A DNA stretch of 20,253 nucleotides from a virus. Below, piece after piece: positions 1-12,172 of this stretch. A model generated the notes under the pieces. It ran no database searches and had not been told where the DNA came from. It saw only the letters and a list, made by a program, of their open reading frames with translations. Position 1 is the stretch's first letter, and every line of letters begins with the position of its first letter. The position numbers were made by a program, and so were the translations under genes. The stretch lies in IMG/VR virus record IMGVR_UViG_3300046559_000035, positions 1-20,253 of that record, one strand, 5' to 3'.

Positions 1-127
1 GTTCGGCTGGCGTAACGCTAGCATTTTCTAGCGTTACTCAGAGCGAACGCTTAAAAGTTATCCACAGGCTTAGCGTTACTGTAGCCGAACGCTAAATGAC
101 CACCTAGCGTTCCCATAGCGAACACCC
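1..127. repeat. Cluster of 24-bp imperfect dyad repeats (iteron- or operator-like)
   Basis: Several copies of a 24-bp element with half-sites TAGCGTT and AACGCTA separated by 10 bases are visible. One copy lies at 29-52 (last base differs) and one exact-arm copy at 71-94. A third is cut by the left edge, with its right arm at 14-20. A degenerate copy lies at about 105-127. The edge copy and the 71-94 copy agree at nearly every visible base when one is reverse-complemented, so the units have a direction. The edge copy and the 29-52 copy face each other, giving a perfect 9-bp inverted repeat at 12-20/29-37. Such arrays bind replication initiators, partition proteins, recombinases or repressors. 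Which applies cannot be decided from this window. Confidence 0.75.
58..66 (+). promoter_or_regulatory. DnaA box, perfect consensus
   Basis: TTATCCACA matches the high-affinity bacterial DnaA-binding consensus exactly. It sits between two of the 24-bp dyad repeats and about 65 bases left of an A+T-rich stretch (131-157). A single 9-mer can occur by chance, but its position inside a repeat array makes a role in replication or DnaA-responsive regulation plausible. Confidence 0.5.
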
Positions 128-130
128 GCA

Positions 131-157
131 AAATTATCGATAAACTCTATTATGTCA
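131..157. other. A+T-rich stretch beside the repeat array
   Basis: This short stretch is strongly A+T-rich in otherwise GC-rich DNA. It contains ATCGAT and a TATTAT hexamer at 148-153 that could serve as a -10 box. No good -35 hexamer is seen 16-18 bases upstream. It could be a DNA-unwinding element next to the iteron-like repeats, or part of a promoter for the plus-strand gene at 240. The rest of 158-239 shows nothing recognisable. Confidence 0.35.
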
Positions 158-239
158 ACCGCGAAAAAAGTTCTGCTCGTCTGATGAAAGGCCGGTAACA
201 TCTGACAAAACCACCTTGGCCCAAAGACCGAGAACCAAA

Positions 240-389
240 ATGAACGAAAACATCGGGGAAGTCGCCGCCATCCAAGAAGCGGCGCAGCAGGACGTTCGTG
301 AAACAGAAGTGCAAGCGACCGATAGGCCGCCCGCACTCGATCACATGCCGCCCGGCCTGATGATGCGCTACATGGCGTGGCGTGATTAG
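240..389 (+). CDS. Small plus-strand protein of unknown function (49 aa)
   Basis: I do not recognise this protein. The frame begins MNENIGEVAAIQEAAQQ and ends MMRYMAWRD. It is acidic and glutamine-rich in the first half, with no membrane segment or cysteine. Codon choice resembles the neighbouring phage genes. It is the only plausible gene on the plus strand in the left end. It lies downstream of the dyad/DnaA-box cluster and converges on the fibre gene, overlapping its last four bases. The ribosome-binding site is weak (a purine-rich stretch around 225-234), which lowers confidence. It could be the last gene of an early or replication operon read rightwards, or a chance frame. Confidence 0.45.
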   Translation: MNENIGEVAAIQEAAQQDVRETEVQATDRPPALDHMPPGLMMRYMAWRD

Positions 390-1291
390 CGAACCCGGCG
401 CGCTCGGATGAAGCCGTTACACGTCATCGTGCTAACGGTGAATGTCGACTGAGCGACCGCGTAGACCGTCGTGGTGCTGGCGAGGCTGACGCGCACCGTC
501 GGCGAGTTCTGAACCTGCGCAGCGCCGGCCGGGAAGCTGCTTGCGAGCTGCACATAGCCGCCCGTATTCGAGCCCGGCAGCGTGGCCGACGTCGTGTTGA
601 CGCCCGTTGACAGGATCGACGGCACGGTTGAGCCAGCCGGAACGAACGTGACAACCGCCGACACATCCCAATCGCCGGCCGGCAGGCTGATGCTGGTCGC
701 ATTGCCGGGCGTCGCCGTCGTCAGCGAGGTTCCTGCCGTCGAGTTCGTCAGATATTCGCCGACGATGCCCGATGCCGCGTTGTTGTTCGTCGCGGTGCCT
801 GACACGTCTGCCGATGTCAGCAGCCGGAAAGCCGGATCTGCGCCGATGCCGCTACTGGCGAGCACCGTGCCGGCTGCGCCGATCGATGCCGCAGCGAATG
901 CCGTGCCACCGCCCTGCCCGAGCACAACGCTATGTGCCGGGAATGAGTTCTGACCAGTGCCGCCGTTGACAACCTGGATCGCCGACGCCCCGAGCACAGC
1001 AGCGAGCGCGGCCGCCTGCGTCGTGGCGCCAGTGCCGCCGTGCGCAATATCGACGGTCGGAAGATCCGCCACCACGAGCGATCGGAAACTAGGCGCAGCA
1101 GAGCCGCCGCTAGTCGGACCGGCAAAGACGGTATTAGCCGTCTGCGTGGAGATCGCGCCCTGAAACGCCGTCACGGCTAATTGGACATCGCGCAAGCCGA
1201 CCGGCTGCGTCGGGTCGTAGCAATGCAGGACGCCACCAGCCGGCGCGACTGACTCGGCGGGAAGCTGGTTAAGACTGATGGTATTTGCCAT
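386..1291 (-). CDS. Tail fibre-like protein (301 aa)
   Basis: This is probably a virion fibre or adsorption protein. The sequence is low in charge and rich in G, A, S, T and V. It carries fibre-type glycine motifs: GGTGATT near residues 85-91 and GGTGQNS near 110-116. A segment around 61-78 (APSFRSLVVADLP) is of a type common in phage side fibres. The C-terminal 120 residues look beta-rich and end in a basic RARRVR. No head-binding domain of the tailspike type is seen, so attachment to the virion is unclear. It is the last late gene, 24 bases after the 3TM holin gene. The ribosome-binding site is weak, and the start was chosen because MANTI is the first in-frame ATG. Specificity cannot be predicted. 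Confidence 0.7.
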   Translation of the reverse strand: MANTISLNQLPAESVAPAGGVLHCYDPTQPVGLRDVQLAVTAFQGAISTQTANTVFAGPTSGGSAAPSFRSLVVADLPTVDIAHGGTGATTQAAALAAVLGASAIQVVNGGTGQNSFPAHSVVLGQGGGTAFAAASIGAAGTVLASSGIGADPAFRLLTSADVSGTATNNNAASGIVGEYLTNSTAGTSLTTATPGNATSISLPAGDWDVSAVVTFVPAGSTVPSILSTGVNTTSATLPGSNTGGYVQLASSFPAGAAQVQNSPTVRVSLASTTTVYAVAQSTFTVSTMTCNGFIRARRVR

Positions 1292-1315
1292 TTATTGCGC
1301 TCGTAAAAAGATCGT

Positions 1316-1858
1316 TTAACCGCGGTTGTCGGTGTTGATGCGCGGGTCTGCCTGTGCTTTCCCGCGGAAGAACGATGCGACACCGAGCACGGCGCCGATC
1401 GTCAGCGTCAGGTCGGTAGAGAGGGAAACCGGCTGCACATGGAACAGCGGCAGGACGAACAGCGAAATGATGTAGAAGCCGAACGTGAAGCCGATAAACG
1501 GGCGCCAGGTGTACGAAGGCCAGTGATCGGACTTCGCCTCGCTCTGCATCGTGTCGTTGACGTCGCCGATCGCGTCAGAACCGGCCTTAATGCTCGCCTG
1601 CTCGGTTGCCGCGGCAATCTGCGCCATCTGAACCTTGAAGTCGTTGTCGGCCTTCTGAAGCGCTGCAATGGCGTCCGGAGACAGACCGGCTTGAATCGCC
1701 TGCGTCACCTGGTCGGACGTGCCGTCCTGATGCCCGAGCACCGCGCTACTCACCGCGCGCAATGCGGCGCCCGCGACCATGCCGGCCGGGCCGCCTACGA
1801 CAGACAGAGCCGTCGCCAATGTCGGCGCAACGCCGCCGAGAATCGACTTCCAATCCAT
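1316..1858 (-). CDS. Holin of the 3TM superfamily (180 aa)
   Basis: This is likely an inner-membrane lysis protein. Residues 6-36 form a hydrophobic, glycine/alanine-rich helix. A charged, helical middle (about 45-110) follows. The family-type motif WPSYTWRP at 113-120 then leads into two clear membrane segments at about 121-139 and 149-165. The layout and length fit the 'Holin_3TMS' group known from gene-transfer-agent and phage lysis cassettes. The gene begins one base after the lysozyme stop, and AAAGGGG upstream could serve as its ribosome-binding site. A second, unrelated holin-like gene lies just upstream of the lysozyme. One may therefore be the timing holin and the other an antiholin or accessory, and the sequence does not say which. 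Confidence 0.75.
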   Translation of the reverse strand: MDWKSILGGVAPTLATALSVVGGPAGMVAGAALRAVSSAVLGHQDGTSDQVTQAIQAGLSPDAIAALQKADNDFKVQMAQIAAATEQASIKAGSDAIGDVNDTMQSEAKSDHWPSYTWRPFIGFTFGFYIISLFVLPLFHVQPVSLSTDLTLTIGAVLGVASFFRGKAQADPRINTDNRG

Positions 1859-1859
1859 G

Positions 1860-2312
1860 TCAGACCCCTTTGCGCATCATGTCGGCGAGGCGTTGCGCCC
1901 TGCCCTTTACTTGAGTGGCCCACGTCGAGTTGAGCAGTTCATTCGCGGAGACGTCGTATTTGCCCTGGCGAGCCGCCGTGAGCGCTTTCACGAACCCGAG
2001 CAGGCGCGTTATCCCCATGTTGAAACAAAGGTTTGCTATGACACGCTGACGCACGTCGTTAAGATCACGCCACCACTGCAGGTTGCGGTCGAGATCGTGG
2101 AATACGTCTTCAAGGTCATCGCCGAGCAGCGAATTGACCTGCGTGTCGTTCAGCGGAGGCTTCCACCCAATCGTGAGTGGCTTGCTATCCATGTTGTGAC
2201 CCACGCCGATAGTCCAATTTGGCGGATTTGCCGTATCCAGATACGGCAGATACCGAACGCCTTCATCGCGTCGCAGCTCGGCGATCAGCGTTTGAAGATT
2301 TTGGTTATTCAT
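1860..2312 (-). CDS. T4-type lysozyme, glycoside hydrolase family 24 endolysin (150 aa)
   Basis: This is a muramidase that cleaves the MurNAc-GlcNAc bond of peptidoglycan at lysis. The catalytic triad of the T4 lysozyme family can be placed by spacing and context: E17 in RRDEG, D26 in PYLD, and T34 in WTIGVGH. The length of 150 residues is typical. There is no N-terminal signal or membrane anchor (it starts MNNQNLQTLIAEL), so it should stay in the cytoplasm until a holin opens the membrane. The start codon overlaps the end of the upstream holin gene by eight bases, and the downstream 3TM holin gene follows after one base. This is a compact translationally coupled lysis unit. Confidence in the family is high. 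Confidence 0.93.
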   Translation of the reverse strand: MNNQNLQTLIAELRRDEGVRYLPYLDTANPPNWTIGVGHNMDSKPLTIGWKPPLNDTQVNSLLGDDLEDVFHDLDRNLQWWRDLNDVRQRVIANLCFNMGITRLLGFVKALTAARQGKYDVSANELLNSTWATQVKGRAQRLADMMRKGV

Positions 2313-2493
2313 TGACGGGCTTTCCCCTCTTCAGCCGCTTTATGGCCGAATACAGTTGCACTGCGGTATATGCGATAGACAGCACGAGCAGCATTCGCGG
2401 AAAATTGACGTCACCCCAGGCCAGCGCGGTGACGATCCATGAGGGCGTGGTCTTTACCACCGACCCGATTACTGCGGATGCTTCTGATTGCAT
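2305..2493 (-). CDS. T7-type (class II) holin-like protein (62 aa)
   Basis: This is a small membrane protein with the look of phage T7 gp17.5-type holins. It has a polar and weakly hydrophobic N-terminus, a hydrophobic segment at about residues 33-49 containing IAYTAVQ, and a basic tail (KRLKRGK). The T7 holin has a very similar IAYTVVQ core, to my recollection. The frame is open farther upstream to 2583, but that extension reads through the terminator hairpin at 2511-2532 and the end of the preceding gene. I therefore start at the ATG at 2493, which has GGGGA a few bases upstream. Together with the overlapping lysozyme this forms a standard holin-endolysin pair. Confidence 0.72.
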   Translation of the reverse strand: MQSEASAVIGSVVKTTPSWIVTALAWGDVNFPRMLLVLSIAYTAVQLYSAIKRLKRGKPVNE

Positions 2494-2503
2494 CGGTTTC
2501 CCC

Positions 2504-2532
2504 GAAAAGAAAGCCGCCTCTGTGGGCGGCTT
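2504..2532 (-). terminator. Rho-independent terminator after the 56-aa gene
   Basis: An 8-bp perfect stem (2511-2518 with 2525-2532) with a 6-base loop is followed on the minus strand by TTTCTTTTC-type sequence. It starts five bases past the stop of the 56-residue gene. The holin ribosome-binding site follows almost at once, so there is no space for a separate holin promoter. Confidence 0.7.
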
Positions 2533-2536
2533 GGGT

Positions 2537-2707
2537 TTATGCCTTCTGGCTGAGGTCTTGTTCGATCGCATCGATCGTTTCAAGCGCGGAATACAGGCCC
2601 AGCAGGCTCTTTTCGGCCTCCTCCTTCATTCGCACGCCGTCAGCCAAAAGCGACTTGGCTTGCGAAATCTGGTTGTTCAAAAATGCGCGTCGTTCGTTGA
2701 AATTCAT
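2537..2707 (-). CDS. Small helical protein of unknown function (56 aa)
   Basis: I do not recognise this protein. It begins MNFNERRAFLNNQISQAK and ends IEQDLSQKA. It is predicted to be almost wholly helical with regular leucines and many charged residues, so a small coiled coil or helical hairpin is likely. There is no membrane segment or signal peptide, so it is not an obvious holin or spanin. It has a good ribosome-binding site (AAGGA about seven bases before the ATG), which overlaps the end of the tailspike gene nine bases away. A terminator follows directly. Its position between tailspike and holin could mean a lysis regulator or a spike-related factor. That is inference. Confidence 0.68.
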   Translation of the reverse strand: MNFNERRAFLNNQISQAKSLLADGVRMKEEAEKSLLGLYSALETIDAIEQDLSQKA

Positions 2708-2716
2708 GTCTTATCC

Positions 2717-4204
2717 TTAGAATGCGTGATCGGCTGCTGCAAGGTCGAAGTAGCCGCGCCGGTCGTACGTCGAGCCGTTATAGACCCACAGTTCGATAGC
2801 GTTGGTCGCCACGTTGAACTGCATAAAGGCAAAGCTGCCGAAGCCCAGCCGCTGATCGCGCATGTGAATTGCGCATTGATTCGGGCCGGTGCCATACGAA
2901 GCAGCGGCCTTCAGTCCGACGTCGAGCCCAATGCCGCCCGGCGTGATGCCGGTTCCATCGGTCGATGCGCCATACTTGAAGTTGATAAGCGTCTGCGGCT
3001 GCGCCTGAATGTCGATGCCGATGTGATCGACAGAGAACGTTTTCATGTAAATGCCGGTGCGCCACTGGTTGGCAACGCTGCCGCTGGCAATGCCATGCGC
3101 GAAAGTGTTCTTGTTCGGGCCGAACGAGATATTCCAGACACCGCACGTAAAGGGCGCAGTCGTCGGGAATGTGTCGTTGTAGGTGTAATCGCTGCCCGAA
3201 TAGTTGTATGTGTCGACTTCGAAGCCGGTAGCCGTCACAGCGTGGTTGTGCGCCCATGCCTCCGTGTACAAGCCCCACACCGCGCCGCTGCTCACGCCAT
3301 GCGCCGACGATGCCAGCCCGACCGATTGCGCCGCGCCGCTGGTCGACTGGTCCTCAAGGTAGAAGTACCCGCCATAGAGCCAGCCAGTGCCGCCCGGAAG
3401 CCGCTTGTGCGTGACGTAGAGCGCCGGGATCAGGTTCGCCGCGGTGTCGCCTGACACCGACTTGTCGACGCGCTGAATGTAGGCGGTCGGCGTCGTGCCG
3501 TCCGTGGTCGGATTGGCCGCCGTGCCATGCCACACGGACATGCGCTTGCTGACGTTCGGCGTTGCGTTGTACGTCATCGACGACGCTTGATGCGCGAGCG
3601 TGCCAGTGCCAGAGAGCGATGCGCCGCCCGAGAACTGCCAATTGATCGTGCCGGGCCCGGCCGTCACGTTCGTATTCAACAGATACGTGCCGTCAGGGAT
3701 GAACACGTTAAGCACGGTGCCGGCCGCGCATGCGTTCTCGGCGGCCTGGAATGCGGGACTATCGTTCGTCGCGCCATCACCCTTCGCGCCGAAATCCTTG
3801 ATGCTGATCCGCTCGGCGTTCTTCTGGTGCTGGTTGCGCGATACGGCGCCGGAATACGGCTGCTTGACCGCGACCAGCGCATCGCCATTGCCGACAAGCG
3901 ACGGATCGGCGAGGTTCGACTGAAACAGCACGAAACCCGAGTCGGCCGACTGTACGACCTGATCCCAAATCGTCACGCCCGCGGAGTTCTGCACCACTTG
4001 GCGGAACGAGCCCGATCCCCAAATGACCGCCTGGCCGTTGGAGTCGAGCACGACCGGGTTCGTGTTCGGGACAGTGCCGGACGAGTCCTGATACGTGTTG
4101 ACCGGGTTCGTCGTGCCGGGCGCGTAGTAAAACACTTGACCACCGGCCAGTGGCGCCCCGTTGCTGTCGATGAACTGGGATTTCCCCAAAGGCAAAATTT
4201 GCAT
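2717..4204 (-). CDS. Tailspike / receptor-binding protein (495 aa)
   Basis: This is probably the trimeric tailspike that attaches to, and may cleave, a host surface polysaccharide. Residues 1 to about 85 resemble a P22-type head-binding domain in layout: D-NGAPLAGG, a DPVN-like NPVNTYQD segment, VVLDSNGQAV, and VTIWDQVV. A neck at about 109-132 (DALVAVKQPYSGAVSRNQHQKNAE) leads to the beta-helix entry motif ISIKDFGAKGDGATND at 133-148, typical of pectate-lyase-like phage spikes. The remainder is glycine-, aromatic- and asparagine-rich and beta-type. Catalytic residues cannot be assigned. GAGG lies five bases before the ATG. Two terminators stand immediately upstream, leaving no room for a promoter. 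Confidence 0.85.
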   Translation of the reverse strand: MQILPLGKSQFIDSNGAPLAGGQVFYYAPGTTNPVNTYQDSSGTVPNTNPVVLDSNGQAVIWGSGSFRQVVQNSAGVTIWDQVVQSADSGFVLFQSNLADPSLVGNGDALVAVKQPYSGAVSRNQHQKNAERISIKDFGAKGDGATNDSPAFQAAENACAAGTVLNVFIPDGTYLLNTNVTAGPGTINWQFSGGASLSGTGTLAHQASSMTYNATPNVSKRMSVWHGTAANPTTDGTTPTAYIQRVDKSVSGDTAANLIPALYVTHKRLPGGTGWLYGGYFYLEDQSTSGAAQSVGLASSAHGVSSGAVWGLYTEAWAHNHAVTATGFEVDTYNYSGSDYTYNDTFPTTAPFTCGVWNISFGPNKNTFAHGIASGSVANQWRTGIYMKTFSVDHIGIDIQAQPQTLINFKYGASTDGTGITPGGIGLDVGLKAAASYGTGPNQCAIHMRDQRLGFGSFAFMQFNVATNAIELWVYNGSTYDRRGYFDLAAADHAF

Positions 4205-4218
4205 GTGGCCTCAAAAAC

Positions 4219-4242
4219 AAAAAGGCCGCACAATGGCGGCCT
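4219..4242 (-). terminator. Terminator directly before the tailspike gene
   Basis: A 7-bp perfect stem (4223-4229 with 4236-4242) has a 6-base loop and is followed on the minus strand by TTTTTGTTTTT. It is the second of a tandem pair. Its T-tract ends about 10-15 bases from the tailspike start codon and abuts that gene's ribosome-binding site. Confidence 0.78.
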
Positions 4243-4250
4243 AGAATGAG

Positions 4251-4274
4251 AAAAGCCCGCACTGTGGCGGGCTT
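4251..4274 (-). terminator. Terminator after the ejection-protein operon
   Basis: An 8-bp perfect stem (4253-4260 with 4267-4274) has a 6-base loop and is followed by TTTTCTC on the minus strand. It lies about 100 bases past the stop of the gp16-like gene and is the first of a tandem pair with the hairpin at 4219-4242. It likely ends or attenuates the long neck and ejection operon. Confidence 0.78.
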
Positions 4275-4286
4275 AAGGGGATGTCA

Positions 4287-4493
4287 ATGAATAGCGATCA
4301 GTTTTGGCGAATGATCTTTACGACCGCCTGCATTGCGGCGCTCTCAGTCGCATACCCGAAACTCAAGGCCATATTCCTACTGGCCTGTGAGCGCTCGGAG
4401 GAGCGCATTGGACGCCGGCGCGGCGATTGGGACCCCGTAGCGCGTAAGCGCATTCCCTACTGGTGCCGCGAACGCGGGACGCGAAGTAAGTAA
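4287..4493 (+). CDS. Possible small membrane protein on the opposite strand (68 aa)
   Basis: This is a low-confidence candidate. The frame from the ATG at 4287 has a good ribosome-binding site (AAGGGG six bases upstream), a hydrophobic segment at about residues 9-34, and a very basic, arginine-rich tail (RIGRRRGDW, WCRERGTRSK). The first 90 bases lie in an otherwise empty gap between the ejection gene's end and the terminators. The last 117 bases run antisense through the 3' end of the ejection gene, whose frame looks real there. No promoter is visible, and the hairpin at 4251-4274 lies directly upstream. It could be an independently expressed add-on gene or a chance frame; arginine-rich tails are common in antisense frames of GC-rich genes. 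Confidence 0.28.
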   Translation: MNSDQFWRMIFTTACIAALSVAYPKLKAIFLLACERSEERIGRRRGDWDPVARKRIPYWCRERGTRSK

Positions 4494-6128
4494 CGCTTGC
4501 GCGGCCTTCTGGCCCGCTGCGGTGTACGGCAAAGCGCCCGCACCTATCGCCGCAGCAAGCGGAGCGGTGTAGGCGGGGACGAACGCATGACCGAGTGCAG
4601 CCGGGCCCATGAGAGCCAGCAGCGATCGGCCGGGCGTCCCTGAGTCGGGATACTTAGACCCCAGCACAGACTGGCCGGCGCTCGAAAAGTCCTGCATCAG
4701 CGCATTGCCTGTTGCAGTCGCGCCCTTGCCTGCCGACTTGTCCGCGCCTCGCACGGCATTGTTAAGTTGCGCCGCCGTAAATACGCCATCATTGTTCATC
4801 GCCCCCTGCGACCCGGCCGCGCCACGCAGCCGCACAAAATTTGCGTAAGCTGCATTCGCCTTCGTCAGATCCTGTACGGCATCGGCGGCGTTGTTCCGCG
4901 GCAACGACGATTCAACGATGTTCTTGATTTCGCCGATCGCCTGCCCGAGCTGCTGATTGTCGAATGAAGGATCGCCAGTGAGCCCGCGCGAGATACGGCC
5001 GAGTTCGCTTTGCACCCCCTTGAGCGTGGCGCCGTCCATCGTGCCCTGCGGCGACAGCTTGCCGGCAACCTGCGTTTTCAGGACGTTCATGAACTGCTGC
5101 TGCTGCGCAGCCGGCAACGACTGCGCCATCTGCGTGAGGTTGCCGAGGTCTGATTGAAACTGTGCATCCGGCTTGAACGTCAGTTTCGACAGCGCGCCGT
5201 CGTAGGCGTCACTGATGGTCTTTTGAACCGCCGCCACGCCTTCATTGCCGACAGGCCCGGAATACTTCTGGCCGAGCGGCGCAAGAACCTGATCGTATGT
5301 CGCCTTGTTGAAGCCCTGCACCGCACGCTGCTGGCCGTTCTTTATCATGTCGCCGAGAAACGGCACGCTCGTCAGCTTCGCCTCGGTGCGCGCTGCTGCG
5401 CCGCCGAGAATCTGGCCGGGCGTCAACGGAACGCCCGCATCGAGCAGCTTGCGTTGCGCCGCGCCAATCGTCGGCGATACCGCGCTTCCGATAGCGCTGA
5501 CTAGCGGGTTAGCAACGGCGCCGACTGCTGCGCTCGTTCCGACCTGCGAAGCCTTCTGTTGCGCGTAAGTGTCGCCCGCATTCGTGACTGGAGTAAGCAA
5601 GCCGCTTGCGGCGCCCGACAAAGCGCCGGCGCCAGCCTTGGCAAGCAAGCCGCCGCCAGCGCCGGCCGGAAGCGCCATCAGCGGAGCGCTGCCAATAACG
5701 TTGCCAGCCGCCCGGCCGAGGTCAATGCCGGAGCCGCCCTGCGCCGCGCGCTGCTGCGCATACTGCGCGTCTTGAGACTGAATCGTCTGATCGACTTGCG
5801 GGACCGCGGCGTTAATGTCCTTTGCGAACTGTGAATCCGGCGCGATCTTATCGGCGAGCCATGCGCCGCCGTGAACCATCGATTGAACGCCGCCCTTGAT
5901 GACGTCGCCAATACCCATCGTCACGGAACCCGGCGTTTTCCATTGCCCGCCTTGCGGTGCGGCCGGCGCAGATGGCGAGGGCGCGGCCGGCGCATCCTTA
6001 GCCGACATGACGCTATTTGCCATGTCGAGCAAAGGATCGCCGGTAGGCTTGGCGGCCGATCCGGCAGCCGTCGAGACGGCTTTGCCAGATTGCACCGCGT
6101 TCGCCATATCGAGCAGCGGATCTGCCAT
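4377..6128 (-). CDS. Ejection protein in the P22 gp16 position (583 aa)
   Basis: This is probably a virion protein released into the host with the DNA. It is rich in A, G, Q and S with few charged residues. The octamer DPLLDMAN occurs twice, at residues 3-10 and 31-38, followed by a proline/alanine linker (about 44-58). Several glycine/alanine-rich hydrophobic stretches (about 140-210 and 505-580) could contact membrane. Residues 220-450 look helical and more soluble. No lysozyme or transglycosylase motif is visible. It is the third of three consecutive large proteins after a gp14-like gene, exactly where P22 places gp7, gp20 and gp16, and its start follows the previous stop with no gap. The function rests on position and composition, not on clear sequence identity. 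Confidence 0.72.
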   Translation of the reverse strand: MADPLLDMANAVQSGKAVSTAAGSAAKPTGDPLLDMANSVMSAKDAPAAPSPSAPAAPQGGQWKTPGSVTMGIGDVIKGGVQSMVHGGAWLADKIAPDSQFAKDINAAVPQVDQTIQSQDAQYAQQRAAQGGSGIDLGRAAGNVIGSAPLMALPAGAGGGLLAKAGAGALSGAASGLLTPVTNAGDTYAQQKASQVGTSAAVGAVANPLVSAIGSAVSPTIGAAQRKLLDAGVPLTPGQILGGAAARTEAKLTSVPFLGDMIKNGQQRAVQGFNKATYDQVLAPLGQKYSGPVGNEGVAAVQKTISDAYDGALSKLTFKPDAQFQSDLGNLTQMAQSLPAAQQQQFMNVLKTQVAGKLSPQGTMDGATLKGVQSELGRISRGLTGDPSFDNQQLGQAIGEIKNIVESSLPRNNAADAVQDLTKANAAYANFVRLRGAAGSQGAMNNDGVFTAAQLNNAVRGADKSAGKGATATGNALMQDFSSAGQSVLGSKYPDSGTPGRSLLALMGPAALGHAFVPAYTAPLAAAIGAGALPYTAAGQKAAQALLTSRPAFAAPVGNALTRYGVPIAAPASNALLRALTGQ

Positions 6129-7667
6129 TTAAAATGCTCCCAAGGCTTTCATTGCCTGATAGTCCTTCGTCCACTGCTTCAAATGGCCCGATGCCTTCAG
6201 CTTCTGCATTGCCGCCTGCTGATCTTCCGGCGAGCCAAGCGAGCGGATATACGACACGTCAGGGTTAAACGACTGGTTCCACTTCGCCTCAAACTGCGGC
6301 AGCGCGGCCGTGCTGTTGCCGTTCTGAGCGAGGAAATTGGTCGTCGCCTGCTGGCGGTCGAGAACCGCTTGCTGCAGCCCCTTGACGTGGTTGATCGAAT
6401 CAAGCAGCGCCGGGCCGTTCATGTTGTTCGGATCGGGCTGCCCTGCCTTCGCTGCGGCAAGGCGAGAATCGCTGCCCGACAGCCCGAGCGATGCCGCCGC
6501 TTGGTCGGCCGCGCTGTTCAGGTAGTTGGCGAGAAGCTGATTGTTCTTCACCGCATCTGTACCGGCCTGAATGCCGAACGTATTGAGCAGAGCCGGGACA
6601 TTGAGCGCAGCATTCGCGCCCTTGCCCGCGATCGTGCTCTTGAGCGCTTGCGCTGCGAGGTCGTATGTCTGCATGAGCGGCTTTGCCTGCTGTGCCGCCT
6701 GTTGCAGTGCGCCGTAACGCTTTCCTGCATCGTCCGCGACACCTGATGCGCCCATCGGCGTACCGGTTGCCACGAAGTGAGCCGGGCCACCAGCCGGCGC
6801 GGCCTGGCCGGGCATCGGCACGGCCTGCCCTGCGCCTTGCTGGTTCGCGGCAGTCGGCAGCGGAGGCACGTTGATCTGCGGCGTTCCTGCGCCACTGACG
6901 CCGTTGCCCCACATTTCGCCGCGCGGAACGACGCCTGGCGTGTTGTTCGGACCCATGACGCCGACGGGTGACGTTGCGGATTCCGGCGTCAGTTGGTTCT
7001 GGACCGACGTCCCGATGATCCCCGGATTCGAGATCGCGTTCGTATCAAGGTATCGCTTCGTCATACCGTCGTCGACCAGCGTCGGCGTAGGCGTCATCGA
7101 CTTAAGCTGCGATCCTGCATCTTGCAGCGATGCCAGTGCGCTGTTGCGCCATGCCGCGCGCCCCGCGGGGTCCTGCGGGATGGTCGACAGTTCGTGAATG
7201 ACCATCTGCGGGTCAACGCCGAACTGGTTCACGAGCTGGTGCCCGAGATCCATCGCGTGTGCCGCGAACTGCGGGTCTTGCGGGTCAAGCGAGCCAAGGC
7301 GCTGCGTCACCGTGCCGAACATCTTTTTGGCGTTGTCGATCTTGTCGTTGCTCAGGCCAATAGACCCGCGGTCCAGCGTCTGCTGCGCTTGCTGTGCATC
7401 GAGAATGCTCTTGTTAATTTGCGGCAGGTTGTACCCGACACCGCTTCCCGCCATGATCGACCGGAACTTGTTGTAATCGGTATTTCCGCTTGCATCCGTC
7501 GCCTGCTTGAACGCGTCTGAGGCGGCGTTGTTGGCGTCCAGCTGTTGTTGCGCAGCGAGCCCATTGGCGTTATAGGCGCGGTACTGCGCGACCTGAAGCG
7601 CCGTTTGAAGCGGATTCATCGGCGCGGGCGCGTTCGCGTTTAGTGCGATCGAGGTATCGAGGGGCAT
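6129..7667 (-). CDS. Ejection protein in the P22 gp20 position (512 aa)
   Basis: This is likely an internal virion protein that travels with the DNA during infection. It is alanine- and glutamine-rich and mainly helical in residues 15-200 and 315-512. A flexible proline/glycine-rich middle (about 225-305, including NVPPLPTAANQQ and MPGQAAPAGG) separates the two halves. There is no signal peptide, cysteine cluster or enzymatic motif. The gene starts two bases after the gp7-like gene and its stop abuts the next start, so the three ejection proteins should be made together. The length is close to P22 gp20 (about 470 residues), but I rely on synteny and not on recognised motifs. Confidence 0.7.
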   Translation of the reverse strand: MPLDTSIALNANAPAPMNPLQTALQVAQYRAYNANGLAAQQQLDANNAASDAFKQATDASGNTDYNKFRSIMAGSGVGYNLPQINKSILDAQQAQQTLDRGSIGLSNDKIDNAKKMFGTVTQRLGSLDPQDPQFAAHAMDLGHQLVNQFGVDPQMVIHELSTIPQDPAGRAAWRNSALASLQDAGSQLKSMTPTPTLVDDGMTKRYLDTNAISNPGIIGTSVQNQLTPESATSPVGVMGPNNTPGVVPRGEMWGNGVSGAGTPQINVPPLPTAANQQGAGQAVPMPGQAAPAGGPAHFVATGTPMGASGVADDAGKRYGALQQAAQQAKPLMQTYDLAAQALKSTIAGKGANAALNVPALLNTFGIQAGTDAVKNNQLLANYLNSAADQAAASLGLSGSDSRLAAAKAGQPDPNNMNGPALLDSINHVKGLQQAVLDRQQATTNFLAQNGNSTAALPQFEAKWNQSFNPDVSYIRSLGSPEDQQAAMQKLKASGHLKQWTKDYQAMKALGAF

Positions 7668-7669
7668 CG

Positions 7670-8530
7670 TTAGACCGTGAAGTAGTTCGGGTTACCTGCC
7701 GACGTCGTGCCGTAAGTCGGATTTGCAGCAGCCGCCGCGCTGCCCGCATTGTTCTGAGACAGGCCGTACAGCATCGCGCTATTGCCCACACCGTTTAGCG
7801 CGCTCGTCAGAGCATTGGCGCCGCCAACGGTGCCCGAGGCGGCCGCGTTCGCCGCGCTCGTCAGCATGTTCCCCTGGTTGGTCGCCGCCTGTTGTCCAAG
7901 GCTGCCCGTCTGTGCCGCCGAGTTCTGGCCCATCGATACCACGCCGGAAAGCCGGCTGATCTGGTTGCCAAGCGTCGACTGGTTCGTGTTGTACTGGCCG
8001 AGCGCGCTGTTGTAGTTCGTGTTGTAGGCCGACTGCGACGTGTTGAAGTTCGTGTTATAGCTTTGCAGCGCACGATTGAACACGTCGTTATAGGTCGAGT
8101 CAGCAAGGCCGGTCGCGTAGTTCGCCGCGCCTTTGAGCGCCGCGCCTGACGTGCCGAGCCCGCGAGCCGCAGCGCTGTTCTGCGTCGACTTAAGCCCCTG
8201 ATCGAGCGTGAACTGATAGCCCGGCGTAGCCTGCGCTTGCGCTGCGGTCGGAGCGGTGAACGCTGCCGGCGCATTGAACTTGTCGTAATAGAAGCCCTGC
8301 GTGAGCGCTGGGTTGTTCAGCAGCGATTGCAGGCTCGTGATGTTGTTCTTGCCGAAATCGGTGAACGGCTGAAGGTCCGTGCGCGTCTGCTGGTATTGCT
8401 GGTTTTGCAGATCGGCGGCGTATTTCGCGGCATCTGACTGCGTATTGGCCGCGCTCTTGCTCGCGCTCGCGCCGGCAATGCCGCCCACCAAGCTGCCGAC
8501 GCCGCTTACGATGCTTCCGATAAGACTCAT
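7670..8530 (-). CDS. Ejection protein in the P22 gp7 position, with 11-residue repeats (286 aa)
   Basis: This is probably an ejected virion protein. The first 25 residues form a glycine-zipper-like hydrophobic segment (GSIVSGVGSLVGGIAGASAS) that could insert in a membrane. A soluble part follows, with a conserved-looking LGTSGAALKGAANYATGLAD region at about 125-144. Residues 147-190 are built of four 11-residue repeats starting YNDV, YNTN, YNTN and YNTN at 147, 158, 169 and 180. This hendecad spacing suits a long helix or a right-handed coiled coil. The tail is Q/N/G/A-rich. The start overlaps the stop of the gp14-like gene (ATGA). The assignment rests on gene order and composition. Confidence 0.72.
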   Translation of the reverse strand: MSLIGSIVSGVGSLVGGIAGASASKSAANTQSDAAKYAADLQNQQYQQTRTDLQPFTDFGKNNITSLQSLLNNPALTQGFYYDKFNAPAAFTAPTAAQAQATPGYQFTLDQGLKSTQNSAAARGLGTSGAALKGAANYATGLADSTYNDVFNRALQSYNTNFNTSQSAYNTNYNSALGQYNTNQSTLGNQISRLSGVVSMGQNSAAQTGSLGQQAATNQGNMLTSAANAAASGTVGGANALTSALNGVGNSAMLYGLSQNNAGSAAAAANPTYGTTSAGNPNYFTV

Positions 8531-8898
8531 GTTTGCCTCGAATATGCAAATTGTTTGCAGCGCATTAAGATCGCTCCGCCCCGAATCTCGACTGGCTTGA
8601 ACCCGAGCCGCTTGCAGAAGCGCATGCTTTTCTCATTGCCGATTTCAACGAGCGTTTCGGCATAGCCGAATTCGTCAATCGTGCGTTGAAGGTGCTGGAT
8701 CAAATGACCGCGGATGCTGCTCTGTGGGTCGGAGAAGAAAACGATGTGTACTTCGGGACCGCGCTGCGCGACTGCGCCAACCTCTGCGCCGGATGACAGC
8801 AGCGGATGGATTAGCCATCCCTCAAAGTGCCGTCTGAAGTCATCCCACGCAATGCCATGTCGCGCCGCGTCGACGCACTCATACATTCGCCGCAGCAT
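8527..8898 (-). CDS. GNAT-fold protein in the P22 gp14 position (123 aa)
   Basis: This looks like a small GCN5-type acetyltransferase fold. A beta region with EVHIVFFSD leads to a helix, and the C-terminal part carries the family-typical GNEKSMRFCKRLGFKPVEI (about 87-105). The acetyl-CoA pyrophosphate loop, usually R/Q-x-x-G-x-G/A, is degenerate here (SSIRGHLIQHLQ), so enzyme activity is doubtful. P22-like phages carry a similar small GNAT-like protein (gp14) needed for assembling ejection proteins, at the same place between the needle and gp7 genes. The best reading is a morphogenesis or chaperone protein with an acetyltransferase ancestry. It starts three bases after the previous stop and its end overlaps the next start. 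Confidence 0.75.
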   Translation of the reverse strand: MLRRMYECVDAARHGIAWDDFRRHFEGWLIHPLLSSGAEVGAVAQRGPEVHIVFFSDPQSSIRGHLIQHLQRTIDEFGYAETLVEIGNEKSMRFCKRLGFKPVEIRGGAILMRCKQFAYSRQT

Positions 8899-8901
8899 GC
8901 G

Positions 8902-9222
8902 TTAGACGCTCTCCGCGCCGGAAACCGTGCAAGTGACGCCCAAGCCGGTAGCCCAAAGCATCATTCCCGGAACGAGCTTGTGATTGATTAGGTTCGGCAC
9001 TTGAATGGACTGGCCGGCCGGCGCGACGATCGATTCGACCGTCGTTGCGTCCGTTTCCGATCCGCTGACCGGGACAATGTAGAACTTGACCGTTACAGGC
9101 GCACCGGTCGGGTTCCAAAGGTTCGCCGCTTGGATCGTCGCGTAAGTGTTCGTCGGCGCCGCGTAGAGTTGCGAAGGCGATGCCGCCAGGACCGATTGAG
9201 CGAGTTGTTTCCAGGTAATCAT
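8902..9222 (-). CDS. Small beta-rich virion protein (106 aa)
   Basis: This is likely a structural protein. The sequence alternates short hydrophobic strands (VTVKFYIVPVSG, SIQVPNLINHKLVPGMMLWATG, VTCTVSG), giving a beta-sandwich pattern. I associate this layout with small phage tail or decoration proteins (SPSQLYAAPTNTYATI and ANLWNPTGAPVTV segments). No enzyme motif is visible. It is an insertion relative to P22, where the needle gene is followed directly by gene 14. The ATG overlaps the upstream stop (ATGA-type), so it belongs to the same translational unit. It may sit on the tail needle or neck; the exact role is unknown. Confidence 0.68.
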   Translation of the reverse strand: MITWKQLAQSVLAASPSQLYAAPTNTYATIQAANLWNPTGAPVTVKFYIVPVSGSETDATTVESIVAPAGQSIQVPNLINHKLVPGMMLWATGLGVTCTVSGAESV

Positions 9223-9581
9223 GATTTCCCTATTACGAGTACGGTGCCGCTGATCGGCGGAGGCGGCTGCAGCCCTGCGATGGTCTGCTCTAGCGCTGTG
9301 ATGCGCGCTCGCAGATCGGCGTTCTGCTGGCTTGCCGAATTGCTGGCTACCAATTCCTCTAGAGCAGCGATCCGAGCCAGCAGCGCGGCGTCTGGATGGC
9401 TCACGAAGCCGTTATCCAGCAGTAGCGCGTTCGCGCCGTCAGTGGAGCCCGGAACAACGCCCGAGATCGCGCCGCTTCGGTTGAATAGCGACAACACGAG
9501 CGGCAACCAAACGGGCGTGATTCGCCCTGTCTTTGGGTCGGTGAACGGCGCCCCAACATCGGGGAAGTTTTGTGCGCTCAT
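9219..9581 (-). CDS. Short coiled-coil tail protein, tail-needle candidate (120 aa)
   Basis: This is a candidate for the plug or needle that closes the portal channel. The N-terminus (NFPDVGAPFTDPKTGRITPVWLPLVLSLFNR) is of a type common in small phage tail proteins. Residues about 65-104 form a clear heptad coiled coil (LLARIAALEELVAS, LRARITALEQTIAGL). A proline run and a short hydrophobic strand (SGTVLVIGKS) end the protein. The position after the gp10-like gene matches P22 gene 26. However, P22 gp26 is about twice as long, so the role is inferred mainly from order plus coiled coil. Both ends overlap neighbours by ATGA-type junctions. Confidence 0.62.
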   Translation of the reverse strand: MSAQNFPDVGAPFTDPKTGRITPVWLPLVLSLFNRSGAISGVVPGSTDGANALLLDNGFVSHPDAALLARIAALEELVASNSASQQNADLRARITALEQTIAGLQPPPPISGTVLVIGKS

Positions 9582-11113
9582 GTTCTGGCCGGTGATGCGT
9601 CAACAAACGCGCCGTTGAGTGCTGTCTTGACCGGCGCGGACCATGAAAGCTCGAATACCCGGTCGCGCGAATAGCCGAGCCGCTGAAACTGGATCGACGT
9701 CAGGAACTCGCCCGTCTTGCCGAGGCTCGACATAACAGGGTTGCCCCACGATTGCCCGCGGTCGTCGCTCCACCGCAGCCATACCATTGGCGGCCGGGCG
9801 TCAGGAACAAGCGCGGCCTGCTCTGCGATGAAGCTGCTCACCTGATCGGCTGTGACGACCGTTGCGCCGCCGTCCGTCGTCAGCAATGGCGACGAATACT
9901 GCGTGAGCATGACCGGCTGATATGTGTTGCCGACTTCCATATCCGCGATGAACTGGCGGAACATGACACGGTTGCCGTCTTTGCCGGCGATATGCGGGAA
10001 ACTGCGGATGCGGATCATTGCCGCGCCGTTGTCGGTATAGGCGTTCGGATCGAGCGCGTACACCTGGCCCGTTTGCCAGTCGCCAACGAGGTTTTGACCG
10101 CCATAGAACGAATGGCAGTTCATACGATGGCGCGACAGGCTGCCGTCCGCTTCGAGATACGCGCGCTGATGCCACATGCCGGACGCCAGATCGAAGCACC
10201 ATGTCTTATTGGCGGTCGGAAAGGTCAGCACATAGAAGGCATGGCCTTCCTGCAAGTACGAAAAGCCGATCGCGTCATCGGTCCGGCTGTAAGTGCTGAA
10301 TTCATGCGCGAGCGCAGGCGTTGAAATCGGCTCGGCGCCGTAGTTCTTGCCAGCGAATACGACGTCCTGCCCCTGCAGATCTTTCCCGAGCCAGAACAGC
10401 GCCAGGTCGATCTTTGCAACAGAGTGTTTCGCCGCACAGCCGTGCTCGATGAACACGCCAGGCATGCGCCCAAACGTGAAGTCGGAAGCGCCGGTGTTGT
10501 ACCAGACCTCAGTTGTCAACTCGCCAAACAGCCAAACTTCGCGGTGCATCACGGCGAGCGTTACAAGGTTGTCCGAATACGTCGATTTCGACGCGATGTC
10601 GAGCGGATCGAACGTGATGTCGTTGAACTTCGAGATGTAGAACTGCTGCGAATTCGGCTTATTGAACACGAAATAGCCGTCGACGTATCCGACCGCATCA
10701 GCGCCATAGAACGCCGGGTCAGTTACTGCCGACATCTTGTTCTGCGTGATGTCGACCGTAAATCCAACGCTCGTTCCATCCACCACAAACGCCTGCGTGC
10801 CGTTATCCACCATCGCCACCGGGCCGCTTGACGTCGAGAGCGCGCCGAGCAGGTTGTATGTCAGCGAGGCGTCGACAAAGTACAGATTCGAGCCGACGAC
10901 TTCGTATCGGTTGCCATTGCTGGCGGTGTAGATGCAGCGGCTTTCGGCCACGATCGGCGGCGTCGATGCGAGCGTGAGACCCGGCGTCGGGTAATGCGTC
11001 GTCGGCGATGGAGAGTCTTGCGGGTTCGACTCGACGTACAGGTTCACGCAGCGCTGCGCGTTGGCAATTACGCTGCGCGCCATGTATGCGCCGGACGTGA
11101 GCGGGATTCGCAT
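9578..11113 (-). CDS. P22 gp10-like packaged-DNA stabilisation / tail hub protein (511 aa)
   Basis: In P22 this protein forms a ring beneath the gp4 adaptor and helps hold packaged DNA inside the head. Here the start MRIPLTSGAYMARSVIANAQRCVNLYVE and following NPQDSPSPTTHYPTPGL are typical of the family. The body is beta-propeller-like, with repeated aromatic strand motifs (GYVDGYFVFNKPNSQQFYIS, VWLFGELTTEVWYN, LFWLGKDLQGQDVV, WCFDLASGMWHQR). The length is near P22 gp10 (472 residues). The start has AGG upstream, overlapping the gp4-like gene's stop region, and the stop overlaps the next ATG. Order and sequence agree, so confidence is good. Confidence 0.85.
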   Translation of the reverse strand: MRIPLTSGAYMARSVIANAQRCVNLYVESNPQDSPSPTTHYPTPGLTLASTPPIVAESRCIYTASNGNRYEVVGSNLYFVDASLTYNLLGALSTSSGPVAMVDNGTQAFVVDGTSVGFTVDITQNKMSAVTDPAFYGADAVGYVDGYFVFNKPNSQQFYISKFNDITFDPLDIASKSTYSDNLVTLAVMHREVWLFGELTTEVWYNTGASDFTFGRMPGVFIEHGCAAKHSVAKIDLALFWLGKDLQGQDVVFAGKNYGAEPISTPALAHEFSTYSRTDDAIGFSYLQEGHAFYVLTFPTANKTWCFDLASGMWHQRAYLEADGSLSRHRMNCHSFYGGQNLVGDWQTGQVYALDPNAYTDNGAAMIRIRSFPHIAGKDGNRVMFRQFIADMEVGNTYQPVMLTQYSSPLLTTDGGATVVTADQVSSFIAEQAALVPDARPPMVWLRWSDDRGQSWGNPVMSSLGKTGEFLTSIQFQRLGYSRDRVFELSWSAPVKTALNGAFVDASPART

Positions 11114-11123
11114 TTATTTTTAC

Positions 11124-11840
11124 CTAGTAAGGGCGGTCCGCATAAATATTGAACCGCTGTTTCGAGCCGAGCCCGCGCGGCATCGTCATGGCTTGGATGC
11201 TCGTGTTCATTCGCTTCACGATGCGCTTGGCGTTCACCGCAAGGCCGATCAGCGTGCGCTGCGGGTCGATCTGATACGACGGGGCCAGAAACATCGCCAG
11301 GTTGTAGCGAATCGCCGTCATGTACTCAGGCGGCAGGTTGATGACCGTTGCCGGCGTGGCGAACTGCGGCAGCGCTTCCATCGTCACGATGTGCAGCTCG
11401 AACGTGTTGTTCGGAACCGGGTAGAAAATCAGGTTGCCGAGCGGATATGCCGGGTCGTAATACGCATACGACGGGAAGGATTGCAGCGCCTTCAGAGCGA
11501 TGCGCGCATAGTCCTCGCGCGCGTCGATGATCGTCACCGGGTAATCGATCGGCGTTGCGCTGCCCGCGTTCAGGCGCGCATATGCCGCATTGATCGCAAT
11601 CGGCCGCTGAATGTTGAAATTGCCGCCTGTGCCGACGGTGTAGGACTGCGCGCCGGTCGACGGGATGGCGGTATCCACCAGGTGATAGACGCTCAGGCGT
11701 TCGCCCTGCCACTGACCGAGCATCATGTTCAGCGTAGCGAGCGCGTCCGCAGTGTCGTCGGCAGAGATCGACTGCCCGATGCCGAGCGCGCCGATGTCTT
11801 TCAACGCAAGCGTAATGAGATCAAGCGCGGTCGTAGCCAT
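11124..11840 (-). CDS. P22 gp4-like head-completion / portal adaptor protein (238 aa)
   Basis: This is likely the adaptor that binds the portal after packaging and on which gp10 assembles. The N-terminus (TALDLITLALKDIGALG, then DTADALATLNMMLGQWQGERL) has the helical pattern of short-tailed-phage head-completion proteins. The C-terminal half has conserved-looking LPPEYMTAIRYNLAMFLAP and a basic end. At 238 residues it is longer than P22 gp4 (166). The frame allows a TTG one codon upstream, but the ATG at 11840 is preferred because it overlaps the preceding TGA stop (TGATG), a common coupled junction in this operon. The family fit is good on order and style. Confidence 0.8.
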   Translation of the reverse strand: MATTALDLITLALKDIGALGIGQSISADDTADALATLNMMLGQWQGERLSVYHLVDTAIPSTGAQSYTVGTGGNFNIQRPIAINAAYARLNAGSATPIDYPVTIIDAREDYARIALKALQSFPSYAYYDPAYPLGNLIFYPVPNNTFELHIVTMEALPQFATPATVINLPPEYMTAIRYNLAMFLAPSYQIDPQRTLIGLAVNAKRIVKRMNTSIQAMTMPRGLGSKQRFNIYADRPY

Positions 11841-12172
11841 CAAGCAGCCTCAAGTGCGGCCCGAATCTTGTCGTCGGACCAACGTTTATCGATCTTCACG
11901 CCCTTTTCGGCGGCGATCTGGATCAGTGCTTCGCGCTCGTCCTCGCTATCGGAGCCGAGCAGCGCTGCTTCTTCTTCAGCCGATTGCACAAGCTGGTCGC
12001 CGATCCACTTTGGATAAGCGACAAATTCGGGGGATTCTTCGCGCGGCACAGGCGGCACGTATGCGGGCACGATCCATCCATCGCCGAGCGCGGCCTGTTC
12101 GTCGGCGCTGTTGACGATCTTCTGCGCGCCATCGGGGCCAGTGACCCACTTCGGAAACTCTTCGTATGCCAT
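11840..12172 (-). CDS. PKW-repeat protein between coat and gp4-like genes (110 aa)
   Basis: The function is unknown. Two copies of an approximately 20-residue unit are visible: FPKWVTG...IVNSADEQAAL at about 6-29 and YPKWIGDQLVQSAEEEAAL at about 53-71, joined by a proline-rich linker (PAYVPPVPREESPEF). The C-terminal 30 residues (EREALIQIAAEKGVKIDKRWSDDKIRAALEAA) look like a small helix-extended loop-helix (HeH/LEM- or SAP-like) fold. The protein is strongly acidic. An upstream in-frame ATG at 12232 would pass through the coat-gene terminator, so I start at 12172, which has GAGGG upstream. Possible roles are a head decoration, or a linker that docks partners through its PKW units. Confidence 0.72.
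   Translation of the reverse strand: MAYEEFPKWVTGPDGAQKIVNSADEQAALGDGWIVPAYVPPVPREESPEFVAYPKWIGDQLVQSAEEEAALLGSDSEDEREALIQIAAEKGVKIDKRWSDDKIRAALEAA

Follow-up and report, generated by a model that had tools for sequence, protein, structure and literature searches.

An array of 24-bp dyads at the edge of a P22-type phage contig as the probable right-hand part of a Rep- and DnaA-dependent replication origin

Results

We analyzed a stretch of 20,253 bp (the window), an IMG/VR viral contig with a P22-type portal, P22 coat, terminase, lysozyme and holin, whose left edge falls within an array of 24-bp dyads containing a DnaA box. Judged from this sequence and that of its relatives, the array probably forms the right-hand portion of a theta-type (iteron-like) replication origin that depends on Rep and DnaA, and the phage is probably a plasmid prophage. 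An iteron-type origin was also the leading reading of a preliminary description of the window, which had suggested looking for further units to the left, for a DNA-binding gene beside the array and for conservation of the motif in related phages. Relatives supply all three: further unit(s) are present on the left, a Rep gene with replication-initiator-like matches directly adjoins the array, and the array and its DnaA box occur in all close relatives.

Organization of the array

The leftmost dyad in the window (unit 2, GTTCGGCTGGCGTAACGCTA; minus strand, positions 1 to 20) has its first 4 bases cut off by the contig end and is complete in L007, L019 and L072; in L019 and L113, TAGC precedes the equivalent of window base 1, making the reverse-oriented dyad whole. 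It is followed on the plus strand by unit 3 (TAGCGTTACTCAGAGCGAACGCTT, 29 to 52), which has one mismatch to TAGCGTT-N10-AACGCTA and starts 32 bp after the unit 2 start in relatives; by a perfect-consensus DnaA box (TTATCCACA, 58 to 66), whose position is identical in all relatives of the window's clade; by unit 4 (TAGCGTTACTGTAGCCGAACGCTA, 71 to 94), a perfect TAGCGTT-N10-AACGCTA dyad 42 bp after unit 3; and by the degenerate unit 5 (TAGCGTTCCCATAGCGAACACCC, 105 to 127), 34 bp after unit 4. The preliminary description had counted at least three units and a degenerate fourth; the degenerate unit stands, but the third is truncated by the contig end and just two dyads are full-length in the window. 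Units do occur in both orientations, as it had stated (1 to 20 reverse, 29 to 52 and 71 to 94 forward), and direct reading of the sequence bears out its perfect DnaA box between two dyads.

Window positions 1 to 157 contain 5 half-sites (TAGCGTT or AACGCTA) where 0.013 would be expected by chance (Poisson P about 3e-12); for a DnaA box in the same interval, the chance expectation is 0.0008. The 24-bp pattern with up to three mismatches was found twice in the whole window against 0.68 expected, which by itself is not significant; it is the clustering and conservation of the array, rather than a bare pattern count, that place it beyond chance. Because the window carries P22-type late genes, the array sits just beyond the 3' end of the late operon. 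Several other contigs (L015, L060, L099, L054 and L072) also break off within the array. L015 does so precisely at base 1 of the window, and this shared end looks like an assembly break at strain-shared sequence. A telomere-type palindrome at the contig end was rejected, since L007 and L019 read through it.

To the right of the array, and separate from the A+T-rich stretch of the origin, lies an A+T-rich block (about 128 to 170) containing a promoter-like element (GATAAnnnnTATTATGTCAA, plus strand, 139 to 158), in which an ATG at 152 to 154 opens a hypervariable plus-strand gene slot. Among the matches listed, which include chance matches, the element is found in L135 (about 4740), L149 to L151, L154, L162, L165, L177 and L179; it recurs after several arrays, ahead of otherwise different ORFs that start MS..., that of L135 being glycosyltransferase-like. 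The GATAA-to-ATG spacing of the element would suit a leaderless transcript, and the short starts MSTAKKVLLV and MSNAKNNQTF recur behind differing flanks. The preliminary description had taken this block as part of the origin; on sequence grounds it is better read as a promoter and the start of a variable cargo slot, which it probably is. The conserved A+T stretch lies on the left, where it is likely that the unwinding region occupies the sequence preceding the first dyad, outside the window.

Leftward context in related contigs

Relatives were located by a motif scan of viral contigs, in which 102 contigs had the bare 24-bp pattern, most of them scattered single matches that we took as chance. 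A near-identity search of window positions 1 to 12000 against phages gave no match. In related IMG/VR contigs, the sequence left of the window contains one more dyad, an A+T-rich stretch and a gene for a winged-helix protein of about 200 amino acids (Rep), preceded by genes for ParA and a ribbon-helix-helix (RHH)-type DNA-binding protein. The closest link is L113 (contig 3300046471_000025), which matches the window at 97.8% identity over 3,937 bp from window base 1 and in which the array comes directly after the rep gene; from this we infer that the window's own phage would encode this Rep, whose gene falls outside the window. In L007, a member of the same family, the genes run ParA, a small RHH-like protein, a short helix-turn-helix (HTH) protein and Rep (HTH_36); the A+T-rich stretch comes next, then an array of five units and the DnaA box, then the converging late operon. 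The small protein adjoining ParA in L007 had no Pfam match; it is called RHH-like because of where it lies and because it resembles RHH-type genes in other lineages. The short protein between it and Rep (5148-5399) is a second HTH_36 protein, perhaps a Rep paralogue or regulator. The array thus occupies the interval between the 3' ends of two convergent operons, rep and late, and an A+T-rich stretch can be read to the left of unit 1 in seven lineages.

Conservation and turnover of the repeats

Searches with Rep returned up to 33 viral loci, of which we examined 26, representing 23 distinct downstream sequences. The first 220 nt after Rep are repeat-rich in all 23 (P at most 0.02, dinucleotide shuffles, a test independent of the clade consensuses described below), and a DnaA box follows Rep in 23 of 23, two of them at one mismatch (TTATCAACA and TTTTCCACA). 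The repeat itself differs by Rep lineage: TAGCGTTACTNNAGCCGAACGCTA in A, TAGCGTTACTCCTACCGAACGCTA in B, TAGCGTACCTGTGGCCGAACTCTA in H, TAGCGGTACTCCAGCCGTTCGCTA in F, TTGCGTTCANNNNNGTGAACGCAA and variants in D, E and C, and AAGTGTTCAATTTGAACACTT in G. Despite these differing dyad sequences, the first two unit starts lie 31-32 bp apart in six of the eight lineages. The first three units keep this spacing, equal to three helical turns, in lineages A, D and H, and a fourth unit follows 42-43 bp on in A and H; clade C deviates, with two units found 53 bp apart (five turns), as does clade G, with one unit in this consensus scan. Unit counts are descriptive, the consensuses for the spacing scan having been picked by eye from the same sequences. 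Four clade H arrays (L150, L151, L153 and L154) have at their right end, about 150-200 nt after rep, a clade-D-like dyad (for example, GCGTTCATCACCGTGAACGCAA), possibly a recombination remnant, which is missing in the clade H locus L149, whose ParA differs.

Cumulative GC skew, proposed earlier as a further check, is uninformative: the curve peaks at the array in G001, and such a peak marks the terminus by bacterial convention, while the array is not marked in G002 or G003. Genes converge at the array, making skew a poor guide to the origin.

The initiator protein

All 20 aligned Reps matched PF13730 (HTH_36); at E 0.01, neither the Rep_3 (PF01051) nor the RepA_N (PF06970) profile was listed for these proteins. 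Most or many Reps also match phage replication-initiation and DnaD-like PHROGs, with O-like initiators and DnaD-like loaders among them. In the AlphaFold model, whose mean pLDDT is 77, a winged helix is predicted with confidence, and Foldseek returned generic winged helices alone for it, none at E <=0.001. A second structural alignment superposed the model over 95 residues with 4pql_B (Z 10.0) and 4pt7_B (Z 9.8), chains titled 'N-Terminal domain of DNA binding protein' and 'Structure of initiator' that we take to be staphylococcal RepA; most other rows cover 60-70 residues, and winged helices of the riboflavin-kinase and CRP types score about as well. Searching solved structures by Rep sequence found nothing meaningful.

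Sequence relatives outside the viral contigs are few. By tblastn, the L007 Rep had one weak Bacillus phage match (32%) and none among plasmids, and the L115 Rep had none among phages and three weak matches among plasmids; the best plasmid match, a Bacillus altitudinis plasmid protein, adjoins a DNA replication protein and a DnaB-like helicase. Against genome contigs, Rep query A2 found no relative and query A3 found one, at 48% identity (L161, 237-833), on a Polaromonas MAG contig of 3,090 bp. This relative on a small contig hints at a Burkholderiales host or plasmid; as support for the origin it was set aside, its downstream dyad being different and no TTATCCACA being seen there.

Partition genes and lifestyle

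ParA is present in six records of 32-41 kb (G001, G011, G012, G013, G014 and G015), and no tyrosine or serine recombinase (PF00589/PF00239) was found in any of them, although all the contigs are metagenomic and possibly incomplete, so that an absent integrase is not proof that the phages do not integrate. The P22 portal occurs in only three of the six (G001, G012 and G014), and we restrict the term P22-like to these and the window. On one molecule, G001 carries the P22 portal, ParA and Rep, the gene content of a phage-plasmid, and it also encodes a DnaB-like helicase; in the window alone, virion genes and a portion of the origin can be seen. Searching for a lysogeny repressor gave none (PF01381 absent). 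A tyrosine recombinase is present in the other lineages; in L034, L115 and L118 it lies near ParA, and it may be either a resolvase or an integrase. In G003/L108 (97-2154, 5687-6559), a Rep/origin module of this kind accompanies a different virion, a family-A DNA polymerase and a tyrosine recombinase. An origin with neighboring ParA and RHH genes would make a plasmid maintenance module, and the window phage, with its P22-type portal and coat, therefore probably persists as a low-copy plasmid prophage rather than by chromosomal insertion.

Alternative functions of the array

The preliminary description had also named a partition site, repressor operators and recombinase arm sites. RHH proteins bind short repeats, and genes for ParA and an RHH-type protein are found no more than about 2 kb to the left of the array, so the dyads might be a centromere (parS/parC) for the neighboring operon; such a site should follow the type of its partition proteins, and it does not. 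Array similarity across 15 loci rises with Rep identity (Mantel r 0.81, P 0.0002) and hardly with that of ParA (r 0.18, P 0.06) or RHH (r 0.21, P 0.04; partial 0.16 given Rep). The correlation with Rep is no proof of Rep binding, since rep is the gene closest to the array and linkage contributes to it. Rep, ParA and RHH have recombined, ParA and RHH freely, which provides natural tests. Near-identical partition proteins accompany unrelated repeats in L133/L150 (ParA 98% identical, Rep 51%) and L141/L160 (ParA 97%, Rep 58%), and the same repeats accompany unrelated partition proteins in L143/L160 (ParA 22%, Rep 97%) and L156/L157 (ParA 25%, Rep 100%). Dyad type thus tracks Rep nearly independently of ParA and RHH, which argues strongly against a centromere. 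DnaA boxes would not be expected at one, and we consider this reading highly improbable. No clear centromere-like repeats were found upstream of parA. Operators or arm sites are the least credible of the alternatives, hardly to be entertained: operators are typically inverted repeats bound by HTH dimers, but the array is flanked by the 3' ends of the rep and late operons instead of occupying a promoter common to both, it has conserved DnaA boxes, which neither kind of site would lead one to expect, and neither tyrosine nor serine recombinases were found in the P22-like records.

A role in lytic growth is less remote, if still unlikely. Rep would then start replication after infection from a lambda-O-like origin, with no part in plasmid maintenance, as its O-like and DnaD-like PHROG matches, the dyad-type iterons that lambda O likewise binds and the DnaB-like helicase of G001 would allow. 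Against this, ParA and a small DNA-binding gene adjoin Rep and the array wherever upstream DNA is readable, except in L155 (by ORF scan), and G003 retains Rep and the array despite having its own family-A DNA polymerase. Lytic and plasmid-maintenance roles could coexist. Under the preferred reading of a plasmid origin, Rep would bind the 24-bp dyads, probably as dimers on one helix face, host DnaA would bind TTATCCACA together with Rep on the array, and the two would melt the A+T-rich sequence that separates the first dyad from the rep stop codon, admitting a DnaB-type helicase; ParA and the RHH protein would segregate the replicon copies.

Discussion

The proposed origin can be compared with several known systems. 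Phage lambda has dyad-type binding units and a winged-helix initiator, O, to which the PHROG matches of Rep correspond, but the lambda origin lies within the O gene, whereas the present array is downstream of rep, includes DnaA boxes and adjoins ParA and RHH genes. Iteron theta plasmids have tandem direct repeats of about 17-22 bp; here, dyads of 24 bp in either orientation recur at a pitch of about 32 bp, and Rep is a winged-helix PF13730 protein of about 200 amino acids with its origin downstream of rep. What the array would share with such plasmids (RK2, F, P1 and pSC101; the Rep_3 class) is a short intergenic stretch holding several copies of an apparently Rep-specific repeat next to rep, a DnaA box beside the repeats and a candidate A+T-rich unwinding region (PMC4980987). 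The Rep of pPR9 has, according to a review, a PF13730-type N-terminal initiator domain and supports autonomous replication (PMC5703833). The modeled Rep resembles this RepA_N/pPR9 type of staphylococcal initiator in that domain and in its predicted 95-residue alignment with initiator chains, although generic winged helices score similarly; it differs as an environmental phage protein of about 200 amino acids with no RepA_N match, and the pSK41 origin lies inside rep rather than downstream.

Functional precedent for an extrachromosomal prophage comes from Miko and RedRock, temperate tailed mycobacteriophages that have parABS instead of an integrase, some with RepA; deletion of repA from Miko left lytic growth intact but stable lysogens were not formed (PMC7157519). 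The present phages likewise have partition genes and no detected integrase, whereas Miko and RedRock have another host group, a RepA of 320-350 amino acids and no repeated motifs identified at the origin (PMC7157519). Environmental phages with ParA/ParB form the glacier-virome phage-plasmid groups of Bellas et al. (2015), in which the present Rep and origin are not known to have been described (PMC4490671). Bcep22-like phages were rejected as a close model because JC1 integrates (PMC9144972).

A Rep/DnaA origin with repeats on a phage-plasmid is of an already known kind; what looks undescribed in the open-access literature searched is the family of the initiator, the geometry of the dyads and the transfer of rep with its origin between phages of different virion genes. 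We give about an even chance to the broader proposal that these phages represent an undescribed phage-plasmid replicon family, in which a small winged-helix initiator and an origin of constant dyad geometry (about 32-bp pitch, DnaA box) acquire new specificities in concert and pass as a pair between phages whose virions and partition systems are unrelated, making new incompatibility groups. The analysis points to a P22-type podovirus group likely living as plasmids, with an initiator family known from the phage and plasmid collections searched as weak matches only. As Rep and its repeats diverge and the geometry stays, these loci form a natural series for studying changes in initiator/origin specificity and phage-plasmid compatibility, and they offer candidate small replicons for uncultured, possibly Polaromonas-like, bacteria.
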